Shown piece after piece: positions 16,649-45,682 of a stretch of 49,317 nt of DNA. The stretch's first letter is position 1, and each line of letters opens with the position of its first letter. The position numbers and the translations under genes were made by a program. The notes beneath the pieces are model-generated. The model had not been told where the DNA came from. It was given only the letters and a program-made list of their open reading frames with translations, and made no database searches. Origin of the DNA: Deltaproteobacteria bacterium (GTDB lineage Bacteria > Desulfobacterota > GWC2-55-46 > UBA9637 > GWC2-42-11); the NCBI GenBank assembly GCA_016223005.1, contig JACRPW010000001.1:1-49317 (forward strand). The letters are read 5' to 3'.

Positions 16649-17008
16649 TTAATATATCTTCTGCATGATTAAATCTTCTTGTGCAATATCCTCATCAATA
16701 TAACTTTCAAAGTCATAGTCGCCAGTTTGCCGTTCATTGAACAATTTTTCTATCATCTTTGTAAATACAGCAGGAAACTTTTTTGTTTTAACAAATTCCC
16801 TGTTAAACGCACCGATTGTCTGGCCATGCGATGAAAAATGCAAGTCCTTTGAAAGCAAAACAGCAGAGATTGCATGATAGACCGCATAATATGTGCGGGA
16901 GACAGAATCATCATATCTTTTATTGTCAAAATCTATATGGGCAGTTTTTAGTTTTTCATGTGCCTTTGAAAGCATTGCCTTTATAACATCAATATCGGCT
17001 GCCTTCAC
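16649..17008 (-). CDS. HEPN domain protein, probable toxin of a MNT-HEPN pair
   Basis: A 119-residue all-alpha HEPN protein. The RNase-type motif Rx4-6H is seen as Arg38...His45 in SRTYYAVYHAISA. HEPN proteins of this class are often ribonuclease toxins whose activity is blocked by a partner MNT nucleotidyltransferase that can AMPylate a tyrosine. The GTG start overlaps the TGA stop of the MNT gene (GTGA), so translation is coupled. The pair lies between alaC and hom. Toxicity is inference from the family. Confidence 0.8.
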   Translation of the reverse strand: MKAADIDVIKAMLSKAHEKLKTAHIDFDNKRYDDSVSRTYYAVYHAISAVLLSKDLHFSSHGQTIGAFNREFVKTKKFPAVFTKMIEKLFNERQTGDYDFESYIDEDIAQEDLIMQKIY

Positions 17009-17310
17009 AGTTCAACCCCCTCTTTTAATATATTCAAACCAATAGGGTATCTCTTTTTACTTTCCCATTCCTTTTCATCGCATACAATACATCCTACCAA
17101 TGCATAATACTTATTCATTATTTCAACACAGGCATCCAAAACAATCTCCTGAATCTTTTTCTCTCTCTTATCCACAATAATCAAGAAATCATAATCAGAA
17201 CCCTCTGTAAAATCACCTCTGGCATGAGAACCAAATAAAACTACCTTCTTTAAATGTCTTTTCAATTTGTTTTTGATAATTTCTGCAAAATTGTTAGTTA
17301 CCGTATCCAT
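17005..17310 (-). CDS. MNT-type nucleotidyltransferase, probable antitoxin
   Basis: A 101-residue minimal nucleotidyltransferase of the pol-beta superfamily. GSHARGDFTEGSDYDF (27-42) holds the GS motif and the Asp39-x-Asp41 metal ligands. It overlaps the HEPN gene by four bases, the usual arrangement of MntA-HepT toxin-antitoxin pairs. The bases between 17311 and 17486 hold no intact gene; a short open tail on the minus strand there could be an old gene remnant. Confidence 0.8.
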   Translation of the reverse strand: MDTVTNNFAEIIKNKLKRHLKKVVLFGSHARGDFTEGSDYDFLIIVDKREKKIQEIVLDACVEIMNKYYALVGCIVCDEKEWESKKRYPIGLNILKEGVEL

Positions 17311-17486: not shown

Positions 17487-17687
17487 CTACACAGTTTCGT
17501 ATTGAAGAACCTTCATCTGTTCAGGTTTCACCCGCAGACTTAAATTAAGCATTTCAACACCCACTACTTTGCCTTCAGCGTTAAAATCCAGAATTACCCC
17601 CGGCTGCACCTCCTCTGATTCCACAATAGAAGATTCATCCAATCGAAAATAAAGGGCATCGTTTTCTTTGTCTACTTTTAACCTCAT
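17487..17687 (-). CDS. DUF2283 family protein
   Basis: A 66-residue protein with the DUF2283 pattern: DKENDALYFRL near the start, then a PGVILDFNAEGKVVGVEML core. It overlaps the upstream DUF4258 gene by four bases (ATGA). DUF2283 proteins are usually found right after DUF4258 proteins and are regarded as possible antitoxins. The biochemical function is not known. Confidence 0.75.
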   Translation of the reverse strand: MRLKVDKENDALYFRLDESSIVESEEVQPGVILDFNAEGKVVGVEMLNLSLRVKPEQMKVLQYETV

Positions 17688-17929
17688 TGTTGCCTCCTTG
17701 CCCTGCGGTCAAAAAATACGGTAACTATTTTCTTTGGCGAAACATGGGGATTTACAACCACATGGAGAATTCGCCCATCATGCTCTGGAATGCTTTTGAA
17801 ATAATGTATATTATTGTCTTCCCCAATATTTTTCCATCCATAACTATCAATGGTTCGCCATACCCATTCTTCATGGATATTGCGTTCTTGCAACATATCT
17901 TGAGCATGTGAGGATAATTTAAAATCCAT
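17684..17929 (-). CDS. DUF4258 family protein
   Basis: An 81-residue protein with the DUF4258 layout: SSHAQDMLQERNI near the N-terminus, an IHYFKSIPEHDGRILHVVV core and KKIVTVFFDRRAR at the end. It is thought to have a BrnT/RelE-like toxin fold, paired with the DUF2283 protein whose gene overlaps its stop codon. It starts 36 bases after alaC. It and the MNT-HEPN pair separate alaC from hom. Confidence 0.75.
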   Translation of the reverse strand: MDFKLSSHAQDMLQERNIHEEWVWRTIDSYGWKNIGEDNNIHYFKSIPEHDGRILHVVVNPHVSPKKIVTVFFDRRARRQQ

Positions 17930-21275: not shown

Positions 21276-22163
21276 TCACGCTTCCAACTTGGCAATAAAC
21301 CAATATACACCGCCGAGAACAGCAACAGCAGCAATCAGGGTCAGTTGTGCCTCAATCGCCTCTCCCTTGAGTGTTGTGATAAGAATCTTTCTTATAACAG
21401 ATACTAATGCAACGCTTATAAAGACCTTTATTGCAAACTTCCCGCCCTTTAGGTGTTTTATTTCAGTATTCAGAAGTTCAATGACAACCCATAAAACAAG
21501 CAGGGAACCCAAGGTGCTTAACAGCCCCTTTTCTATATCACCTTCAAATATATGGCTTACATCATAGACAAAGAGACCCATAACCATTACAGACATTAGT
21601 ATGAGTCCTATGAGTAATAGGAGGTTCAGTCCGTGTGTAAATCTCTTTGCAATCTGAACCATGTAAGATTCTAGTTTTTGGGAGATAAAATAATTTCTAA
21701 GTTCACCCTCAACGAATGAACTTGTCATTATATCAAGGTTTATATCAATTATCTTTGTAAAGGAATTTGCAATCTCCCTTCTTTCTGATTCATCTCTATA
21801 TTCCTTTCTCAATATATCAAGGCAAAAGATTCTGACAAAGTTCATCGCAGCATTGACATAATGCGGTTTGAGACCTATCTTTACATGGGCATAACCTATC
21901 TTTTCCAGTCCGAGAAGGTAACCTTCTTCATAATCCCCTGAAAACAGGTTTGCATACCATTCCTTAAGGGAATGCTGATGCCGTTTTACAACCAATTCAT
22001 CTTTAAGAAAATGGGGTGTTTCTTCAAAGTCCCTTATGTGTTCATAAAACTTTACAGGAAACTCATCCGTATATTTCATCATTACCGGCGCAATATGCGT
22101 AAGGTTCTTTTCATCCCTCTCAAAGAAGTTGTAATGTTTTTTTATATCCCTGATGGATTCCAT
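21276..22163 (-). CDS. Protoglobin-PsiE membrane fusion protein
   Basis: A 295-residue protein in two parts. Residues 1 to about 180 are a protoglobin-type heme sensor: HQHSLKEWYANLFSG is followed by GYAHVKIGLKPHYVNAAM, whose first His is the likely proximal heme ligand. Residues about 185-295 have four membrane helices and the PsiE pattern (ELLNTEIKHLKGGKFAIKVFISVALVSVIRKILI), as in the phosphate-starvation protein PsiE. A globin tied to a PsiE membrane domain suggests a gas- or redox-responsive membrane protein, but the output is unknown. ndk ends three bases upstream. Confidence 0.78.
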   Translation of the reverse strand: MESIRDIKKHYNFFERDEKNLTHIAPVMMKYTDEFPVKFYEHIRDFEETPHFLKDELVVKRHQHSLKEWYANLFSGDYEEGYLLGLEKIGYAHVKIGLKPHYVNAAMNFVRIFCLDILRKEYRDESERREIANSFTKIIDINLDIMTSSFVEGELRNYFISQKLESYMVQIAKRFTHGLNLLLLIGLILMSVMVMGLFVYDVSHIFEGDIEKGLLSTLGSLLVLWVVIELLNTEIKHLKGGKFAIKVFISVALVSVIRKILITTLKGEAIEAQLTLIAAVAVLGGVYWFIAKLEA

Positions 22164-22597: not shown

Positions 22598-22786
22598 TCA
22601 ATGAATTTCTGTTTTACACTTTGGACATATAAATCTATTTTCAATAGCCATATCATAAATAAAACCGGGCAGGAGGAAAAAAAACCATAAAAATATTCTA
22701 AGCACTATCTGTTTCGGTTGTGAAGAAAACCTCTTTGGCTTTCCCTCAAAACTGCATTCAGGGCATTTAATCCAATTTTTATCCAT
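22598..22786 (-). CDS. Small zinc-ribbon membrane protein
   Basis: A 62-residue protein with CPEC near residue 7 and CPKC near residue 55, flanking one hydrophobic segment (IVLRIFLWFFFLLPGFIYDMA). I place the start at the ATG at 22786. The next upstream ATG at 22840 would run into the end of the selenoprotein gene. No functional clue beyond a zinc ribbon at the membrane. It stands between the selenoprotein and ndk in one transcriptional direction. Confidence 0.6.
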   Translation of the reverse strand: MDKNWIKCPECSFEGKPKRFSSQPKQIVLRIFLWFFFLLPGFIYDMAIENRFICPKCKTEIH

Positions 22787-22826
22787 AGAAGAAATATACT
22801 GGCAGCCTGCCAGCAATCTAAATCCC

Positions 22827-23042
22827 TCAAGTGCCTCCAAAACCTACTGTTATTTTATTATCCTCAACAATGACAGGCACATCCCGTTTTCCCTTTGAAT
22901 ATACCAGCATCTCTTTCATGGCATTTTCATCTGCCTTTACATTGAAGTATTTAACATCAAATCCTCTTTTTGCATAATCCTCACGGGCTGCATTTGTGTA
23001 TGGTCAGGTATCTTTCCCAAAGATGAGAACATTTTCTGGCAT
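22827..23042 (-). CDS. Glutaredoxin-like selenoprotein (UXX-type), read through an in-frame UGA
   Basis: A 71-residue thioredoxin-fold protein, visible only when the TGA at 23004-23006 is read as selenocysteine (codon 13). The active site becomes KDTUPYTNAA, a UxxT motif where glutaredoxins have CPYC. REDYAKRGFDVKYFNVK follows, then RDVPVIVEDNKITVGFGGT, with the cis-Pro of VPVIV and the glutathione-site-like GFGG. AGGAGG lies five bases before the ATG. This matches the small UXX selenoprotein family known from deltaproteobacteria. It probably acts as a selenol thiol-disulfide oxidoreductase. SelD and tRNA-Sec in the same window support the reading. It follows apbE on the same strand. Confidence 0.88.
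22971..23006 (-). promoter_or_regulatory. Putative SECIS hairpin of the glutaredoxin-like gene
   Basis: Downstream of the UGA (23004-23006), TGCA at 22989-22992 can pair with TGCA at 22971-22974. CC at 22985-22986 can pair with GG at 22979-22980 around a GTGA loop. The GU in the loop lies about 19 bases after the UGA, within the distance reported for bacterial SECIS elements. The stem is short and imperfect, so confidence is modest. Confidence 0.45.
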
Positions 23043-23101
23043 AAAGGCCTCCTGTCGAATTTTTTGAAATATTATCATTTAATACTAATTTTGCAATATA
23101 T

Positions 23102-44523: not shown

Positions 44524-45573
44524 ATGGCATCTGGCAAAAAAATAAGACTCACAAGTTATGCATCATGCGCAGGTTGAGCGGCAAAGATGGGGCCAAAAGC
44601 CCTGATGCAGGTTCTGCATCATCTGCCAGATGTAAAAGATGAAAATCTTTTGGTAGGCATTGATACTGCTGATGACGCAGGGGTGTATAAAATTTCAAAT
44701 GACACGGCTGTTGTGAATACGCTTGATTTTTTTCCGCCGATTGTTGATGACCCATATATATTTGGAAGTATTGCTGCGGCGAACGCCTTAAGTGATATTT
44801 ATGCAATGGGTGGGACTCCTAAACTTGCTATGAATATAGCGTGCTTTCCACCTGATTTAGATTTGTCCATACTTGAGGATATTATTAAAGGAAGTGTTGA
44901 TAAATTAAAAGAGGCGGGTGTTTTGCTTGTTGGCGGTCATTCTATAGAGGATAAAGAGGTCAAGTATGGACTTTCTGTTACAGGTTTTGTTCATCCTGAT
45001 GAGATAGTCAGGAATGCAGGCGCAAAGCCGGGGGACAGCCTTATATTGACAAAACCGCTGGGCGTGGGTGTTATTACGACTGCGCTGAAAAATAGAAATA
45101 TAAAACTAGAAGATGCTGATAATGCGATTGTTTCAATGCAGGCATTGAATAATATATCGGCAAAGGTTATGACAGAAATAGGTGTCAATGCCTGCACAGA
45201 TATAACAGGTTTCGGACTCATAGGTCATTTAACAGAAGTTGCAGATGCAAGCAATGTTTCTGCGGTTATAAACTCAAAAAAGGTGCCTGTCTTTGACATA
45301 GCGATTAAACTGGTTAAGAAAAGGGGCAATATGCCCAAGTCTATTGCTGCAAACAAGGAGTATTTTAAAGAAAGGGTTGAGTGTTCTGATAATGTGCCTA
45401 GTGCATTGGAAGACCTCTTTTACGATCCCCAGACATCAGGGGGGTTGTTATTATCTGTGGCACAGGAGAAGATGCCTCAATTACTAGAAAGATTAAAATC
45501 ACAAGGTGTGGCAGGATATAAGATTGGTGAGGCTGTGATGAGGCGGAACGAATGGCTGATATCTGTAAAGTGA
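44524..45573 (+). CDS. selD: Selenide, water dikinase, itself a selenoprotein (Sec18)
   Basis: SelD makes selenophosphate from selenide and ATP. The gene must be read through a TGA at 44575-44577 (codon 18): RLTSYASCAGUAAKMGPKAL aligns with the E. coli active-site segment SHGAGCGCKISPKVL, U replacing the catalytic Cys and Lys21 following. AAGGGG lies seven bases before the ATG at 44524. The rest is typical: VNTLDFFPPIVDDPYIFG, ANALSDIYAMGG, LVGGHSIED and DPQTSGGLLLSV; 349 residues. Starting at the ATG after the UGA (44587) would lose the catalytic residues. tRNA-Sec follows within 13 bases. Confidence 0.95.
44575..44621 (+). promoter_or_regulatory. SECIS element of selD
   Basis: After the Sec UGA (44575-44577), TGATGCAG (44603-44610) pairs perfectly with CTGCATCA (44614-44621) around a GTT loop. 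An eight-pair stem with GU in the apical loop, about 33 bases after the UGA, fits the known form of bacterial SECIS hairpins bound by SelB. Confidence 0.8.
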
Positions 45574-45586
45574 ATTATTGTAATCT

Positions 45587-45682
45587 GGAAGGCGATATCA
45601 CCCGGTGGTGCTGCCAGTCTTCAAAACTGTGCTGTCCTGTGAATACAGGAGAGGTGGGTTCGACTCCCTCCGCCTTCCGCCA
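45587..45682 (+). tRNA. selC: tRNA-Sec (anticodon UCA)
   Basis: The 8-base-pair acceptor stem GGAAGGCG (45587-45594) with CGCCTTCC (45671-45678), the discriminator G and an encoded CCA are those of bacterial tRNA-Sec. The anticodon TCA is at 45621-45623 in the loop CTTCAAA. A long variable arm has CCTGT...ACAGG. The T loop is TTCGACT; its five-pair stem shows one U-U mismatch. It lies 13 bases after selD and is probably transcribed with it. SelA and SelB are not in the window. Confidence 0.95.

Follow-up and report, generated by a model that had tools for sequence, protein, structure and literature searches.

A predicted glutaredoxin-like protein with two selenocysteines, a member of UXX-star selenoprotein family 1, on a deltaproteobacterial contig

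A short minus-strand reading frame of a Deltaproteobacteria bacterium (GenBank assembly GCA_016223005.1, contig JACRPW010000001.1, positions 1 to 49,317; this whole stretch of 49,317 nucleotides is called the window) is interrupted by UGA, which raises the question of whether it is a selenoprotein gene and, if so, where the gene ends. The initial annotation had proposed a product of 71 residues with a single selenocysteine (Sec, U) at codon 13. The comparison with homologs agrees with the assignment of codon 13 and moves the end of the gene: the complete coding sequence extends from 22818 to 23042 and comprises 74 codons and a TAG stop. Judged from the comparative data, both in-frame UGA codons almost certainly encode Sec. 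By its profile scores the locus is an ordinary member of a family which is known from sequence data and has already been named, a point that had escaped the initial annotation.

The reading frame and its two UGA codons

The frame starts with an ATG at 23040-23042, and a Shine-Dalgarno sequence, AGGAGG, is located five nucleotides (nt) ahead of it (22818-23042 and 23048..23053, both on the minus strand), as originally described. When TGA is translated as U, the product has 74 residues and reads MPENVLIFGKDT-U-PYTNAAREDYAKRGFDVKYFNVKADENAMKEMLVYSKGKRDVPVIVEDNKITVGFGGT-U-GI-stop. The peptides pointed out at the outset, namely the one running from KDTUPYT to AKRG, VPVIV and the GFGGT near the end, are all present. 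The UGA of codon 13 (23004..23006) would place Sec13 at the N-terminal active-site position, in the motif UPYT. The UGA of codon 72 (22827..22829), previously taken for the stop, would give Sec72 as the third residue from the C-terminus (U-G-I-stop), and the true stop, TAG at 22818..22820, follows two codons after it (in-frame TGA GGG ATT TAG). It was correctly noticed that ordinary open reading frame (ORF) calling overlooks this glutaredoxin-like selenoprotein gene of the UxxT type. Gene callers miss such a gene because the frame is split at codon 13 and the UGA of codon 72 resembles a natural stop.

In an hmmscan search of NCBIfam the product matched NF041114, 'UXX-star selenoprotein family 1', with 117.8 bits (curated cut-off 72, E 1.8e-34, far beyond chance) and the parent profile NF041212 with 93.2 bits (cut-off 66). 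The Pfam Glutaredoxin profile PF00462 gave 39.2 bits against a gathering cut-off of 22.9. The end of the protein, i.e. Sec, two residues and stop, fits the name 'UXX-star', and the second Sec that the initial annotation lacked is the hallmark of the family. The genome has one copy of a UXX-star gene.

Homologs were collected from several sources. Among 59 related genomes 42 had a match at E <= 1e-6, 41 of them over the NF041114 cut-off, and in the phylum 100 of 395 genomes were over the cut-off. The contigs of GTDB gave 165 confirmed relatives, and the best 80 of these, which were kept, were titled Deltaproteobacteria, Acidobacteria, Methylomirabilota, Latescibacterota, Myxococcales and others. 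The matches below the cut-off in the phylum search were mostly other glutaredoxin (Grx)-like proteins with CPYC, UPYC or UPHC motifs and were set aside. Other members of the phylum had separate selenoproteins of the YruB/Grx-like type (L160-L166, L173), in which UPYC, UPFC or UPHC is combined with an ordinary C-terminus.

The final set consisted of 117 distinct homologous genes. The filter for this set demanded U or C at site 1 (codon 13) and U, C or S at site 2 (codon 72), and the unfiltered family alignment and looser searches gave a concordant result. The codon pairs at the two sites were UGA/UGA in 106 genes, Cys (UGY)/UGA in ten and Cys/Ser (UGC/UCA) in one; an additional gene, L092/L148, is outside the 117 and has Cys at both sites. 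All 222 in-frame UGA codons fell at these two sites, and no other in-frame stop was present.

Codon 13 was thus UGA in 106 of the 117 genes and Cys in the other 11, and conservation continued beyond it. The outcomes that the initial annotation had named as refuting a Sec at this codon were not observed. A pseudogene or a sequencing error at this codon might be suspected from the interrupted frame and from the draft state of the assembly, which has 102 contigs. This explanation has a negligible probability and is refuted by the homologs, since 106 distinct genes have the UGA in this very position and purifying selection acts on the sequence past it. Between the window and the nearest relative, L013, the nonsynonymous divergence (dN) was 0.16 and the synonymous divergence (dS) 1.06. 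The dN/dS ratio was low in close pairs, with a median of 0.36 over 1333 pairs, in which dS is partly saturated. The source genome and Deltaproteobacteria bacterium GWC2_42_11 (L063/L013) are members of one family. In an alignment of 53 homologs with UGA read as Cys, the invariant positions were K10, residue 13, P14, T16, V55-P56, G67, G69 and residue 72.

For codon 72 the obvious alternative is that only UGA13 encodes Sec and that UGA72 is a normal stop, giving 71 residues. UGA can terminate translation in these organisms, as it is the true stop of 49 of the 117 homologs. The true stops are, however, mixed (TGA 49, TAA 41, TAG 27), and site 2 is not: 116 of the 117 genes have UGA there. Site 2 is therefore best read as Sec, as a plain stop would vary too. 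Moreover, the true stop was always two residues past site 2 in this set, and a small residue and V or I are conserved between them.

Two other observations were made on individual homologs. L155 carries tandem double-Sec genes, two copies about 425 bases apart, each with its own site-2 hairpin. A variant with Cys13, L149, ends in U-R-V-V-stop and so has three residues behind the C-terminal Sec, one more than is the rule in the family.

Hairpins and the decoding machinery

A hairpin of the bacterial selenocysteine insertion sequence (bSECIS) type was predicted downstream of each UGA codon. The hairpin for Sec72 (22797..22815, minus strand; UGCUGGCA-GGC-UGCCAGUA) has 8 base pairs (bp) and the loop GGC, and was found by folding and covariation. 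Sec72 is so close to the end of the gene (three codons) that this hairpin falls into the 3' untranslated region, where, after the stop codon, there is no coding constraint. The hairpin for Sec13 (22971..22992, minus strand; UGCA-GC-CC-GUGA-GG-AUUA-UGCA) is weaker and coding-constrained, and it is proposed from folding and synonymous codon use.

Behind site 2 the mean folding z of the homologs was -2.8 over the 30 nt at +9..+39, counted from the first base of the UGA, and close to 0 beyond this segment. Of 116 genes, 114 had a stem there; its length was 4-10 bp (6-8 in most genes), and its loop usually began 20-24 nt past the U of the UGA. The mean stem score was 18.7, compared to 7.5 for shuffled sequences. 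Thirty hairpins whose loop has three bases were aligned; 99.5% of the cells were paired, compared to 73% after shuffling. The search picks the best hairpin, which biases pairing counts towards pairing, and the same applies to the covariation alignment; it is the shuffled control that carries weight. Two-sided changes were observed on all seven of the 7 pairs, and the signal collapsed when the alignment was slid by 1-3 columns. When folding was unconstrained, 116 of 117 loops contained a G, and most were GGU, GGUC, GGC or GUC. Such a covarying hairpin at the right distance also speaks against UGA72 being a normal stop.

A GC-rich hairpin just past a stop codon is a common shape of transcription terminators, and this element could accordingly be a terminator or a stabiliser of the messenger RNA rather than a SECIS. 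That is very unlikely: the loop starts are clustered at 20-24 nt, a G is almost always found in the loop, the window has no U-run behind the hairpin, and the hairpin has decayed in lineages without the site-2 Sec and the Sec machinery. For UGA72, a bSECIS-type element is thus the preferred assignment.

The evidence at site 1 comes mainly from the codon of Arg20, which falls in the hairpin loop. CGC was used for this residue in none of the 106 Sec genes and in 7 of the 11 Cys13 genes (p = 7e-9), while it made up 106 of the 373 other Arg codons in the same Sec genes. CGU was found in 79 of 106 Sec genes at Arg20 and in 31 of the 373 other Arg codons (p = 4e-41); neither p value is corrected for shared ancestry. 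With the window sequence alone the z values were weak to modest for both hairpins, and the case rests on comparison.

The genome encodes the machinery needed, i.e. selA (607 bits), selB (398 bits), selD (380 bits) and tRNA-Sec. The selD gene (44524..45520, end approximate, plus strand; TIGR00476 379.7 bits, match 44545-45471) is itself a selenoprotein gene with UGA at 44575-44577 (SCAGU). The tRNA-Sec gene with the anticodon UCA is at 45587..45678 on the plus strand (Rfam RF01852 59.8 bits; ARAGORN). The two genes follow each other closely (44524-45678, plus strand), which puts Sec machinery on the contig of the UXX-star gene itself.

The distribution of the machinery in the class provides a natural experiment. 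A UGA-bearing gene was present in 40 of 63 genomes, 36 of which also have SelA. No selA was found in the remaining four (G023, G035, G053 and G058), probably due to assembly gaps, since all four have SelB above the cut-off. The family was absent from 13 other genomes without SelA. Fisher's test for SelA against the UGA-bearing gene gave p = 8e-6, or 4e-9 when the four SelB genomes were counted as Sec users; these values are not corrected for shared ancestry, and SelB was not searched in eight SelA-negative genomes. The only two members of the class with a UGA-less gene, G039 (Cys/Cys) and G044 (Cys/Ser), had neither SelA nor tRNA-Sec above the cut-off, and their SelB matches were at the level of EF-Tu, none above the cut-off. 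In the UGA-less genes the site-2 hairpin has decayed, as seen in the region about 12-60 nt after site 2: its stem is broken in L148 (Cys), and in L147 (Ser) about 21 nt have been inserted into it. Replacement of site 2 by Cys or Ser along with hairpin decay in genomes without SelA and SelB further disagrees with a single-Sec protein, which we consider highly improbable. UGA72 as a stop is contradicted by codon counts, hairpin, covariation and loss cases alike.

Fold, possible mechanism and gene surroundings

An AlphaFold2 model built with 53 homologs and UGA as Cys had the order beta-alpha-beta-alpha-beta-beta (mean predicted local distance difference test score 91.6), without the C-terminal helix of glutaredoxins. 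The best PDB matches of the model were glutaredoxins and NrdH, with a template modelling (TM) score of about 0.7. In glutaredoxins the stretch after the last strand, with its GG or GF motif, borders the active site and helps in glutathione binding. The corresponding stretch here is GFGGT-U-G-I-stop. While dithiol glutaredoxins have CxxC or UxxC, the motif here is UPYT, with an invariant Thr at the fourth position in the 53 homologs. The initial annotation rightly placed Thr at the resolving position of a UxxT motif; its proposal that the selenol works with another thiol is better re-read as a second selenol in the same chain. We infer that Sec72 is near Sec13 and stands in for the missing second Cys.

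Taken together, it is very likely that this is a complete NF041114 gene, that both UGAs are decoded by the organism's own SelA, SelB, SelD and tRNA-Sec via the hairpins, and that the product is a cytosolic thiol/selenol redoxin, in which Sec13 may pair with Sec72. Family membership, the two Sec sites, hairpins, machinery and conservation are sequence evidence here, and the pairing, the substrate and the reductant are inferred. The mechanism could be as follows. Each Sec would be directed by the hairpin just downstream into a 74-residue, C-terminally shortened protein of the glutaredoxin fold. Sec13, with no Cys at the usual resolving place, would attack a disulfide or peroxide substrate, and the mixed selenosulfide or selenenic acid formed in this way would be resolved within the chain by Sec72, at the glutathione-binding place of glutaredoxins. 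The outcome would be a Sec13-Sec72 diselenide, or a Cys13-Sec72 selenosulfide in the Cys13 relatives, to be re-reduced by a reductase or thiol. We give the pairing of Sec13 with Sec72 about an even chance. A more specific version, in which the intramolecular diselenide is the catalytic unit and the C-terminal Sec at the glutathione-binding edge is indispensable, is tentative and has rather less than an even chance. No GCS2-type glutamate-cysteine ligase was found in the genome, other ligase types not being searched; this is at most a hint against glutathione.

The two sites are not equally stable. Sec13 has been replaced by Cys in 11 genes, which corresponds to 11 parsimony changes on a weakly resolved tree, possibly an overcount (L002 and L003 are congeners), while the site-2 Sec was replaced in one of the 117 (Ser) and in the one all-Cys case. 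The C-terminal Sec thus appears harder to lose than Sec13, with the caveat that relatives which lost the site-2 Sec long ago may score below the family cut-off.

Several points weigh against the redoxin with a Sec pair as described. Sec insertion is a prediction from sequence, and the site-1 hairpin of the window sequence alone is weak (z -0.9). Both Sec sites were modelled as Cys. Cys has repeatedly replaced Sec at site 1 but site 2 remains Sec, a pattern not in itself required by a simple two-selenol cycle. A recent review has suggested that the Sec of UXX-star proteins may bind metal (PMC13188914). The two Sec would then form a site for a soft metal or metalloid (e.g. Hg, As or Cu) in a chaperone or detoxification factor, not in a redox enzyme. 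Two nearly invariant soft ligands, of which site 2 is kept as Sec and site 1 drifts to Cys, would be consistent with this. However, the glutaredoxin fold, the intact active-site motif and the VP loop of the cis-Pro type argue for a redox protein, and none of the recurrent neighbours at 66 loci, in clusters judged by eye and not all annotated, was recognisable as a metal-resistance gene. On balance a metal role is unlikely, and the redoxin remains the preferred interpretation.

The surroundings of the gene gave little indication of a partner. The apbE gene upstream and the zinc-ribbon ORF downstream are indeed its neighbours, as initially reported; neither is conserved family-wide. No partner gene was shared across the family within 4 kb of the 66 loci, and ApbE was dismissed as a functional partner on the same grounds. 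The order of the window, i.e. the gene followed by ndk, a protoglobin/PsiE protein and rlmN, was found at only about 6 of the 66 loci. The protein in which a protoglobin and a PsiE-type membrane domain are fused is encoded at 21276-22163 and the small zinc-ribbon, membrane-like protein at 22598-22786, both on the minus strand. For the latter a TTG start at 22840 is listed, which would overlap the Sec gene; this start is probably wrong, since a likely ATG at 22784-22786 starts just past the Sec72 hairpin. Further away a HEPN/nucleotidyltransferase (MNT) pair (16649-17310, minus strand) has a typical toxin-antitoxin arrangement, and a DUF4258/DUF2283 pair close to it (17487-17929) also resembles a toxin-antitoxin module.

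Significance and relation to known families

As a discovery the locus is ordinary; its value is that of a well-supported family member and, at the level of the family, of a case in which SECIS evolution can be followed. It illustrates how double-Sec proteins are hidden by gene callers through a split frame and an apparent natural stop. With its Sec/Cys switches, and SECIS decay in genomes that lost SelA and SelB, the family is a clean natural experiment for Sec recoding, and the site-2 SECIS is wholly outside the coding sequence. If a Sec13-Sec72 diselenide is formed, the product would be a naturally occurring redox protein of the diselenide type, very small and easy to test.

The 2026 review lists the NF041114 family as predicted, with the motif UxxT and two Sec per protein, under the alias 'Distant Grx-like protein 1', which it credits to Zhang & Gladyshev 2008 (PMC13188914). 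No experimental characterisation of the family was found in the literature searched. The present gene resembles UXX-star selenoprotein family 1 in size, UxxT motif, two Sec, the second Sec three residues from the C-terminus and a score far over the cut-off, and we see no essential difference. UXX-star families 2 and 3 (NF041211 and NF047338) and the HUGP/GUXX-star fusion (NF045501) share, by name, a Grx-like domain and a C-terminal UXX-stop. Their scores were significant, but the gene is outside all three, with 48.5 (cut-off 100), 52.9 (97) and 57.6 (325), respectively.

The selenocysteine glutaredoxin (UxxC; PMC13188914 ref. 85) has the glutaredoxin fold and a Sec at the N-terminal active-site position in common with this protein, and related cGrx structures were among the top fold matches of the model. 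It differs in having UxxC, whereas here the motif is UxxT, a second Sec is predicted at the C-terminus and the last helix is missing in the model. The NrdH-redoxin and YruB-family proteins are of similar length, have a GF motif ahead of the C-terminus and, for NrdH, match in fold (1h75, 4fiw). The product is, however, under both curated cut-offs, with 24.6 of 85.75 for NrdH (TIGR02194) and 42.1 of 88.55 for YruB, and it would carry a Sec tail where those proteins have a C-terminal helix.
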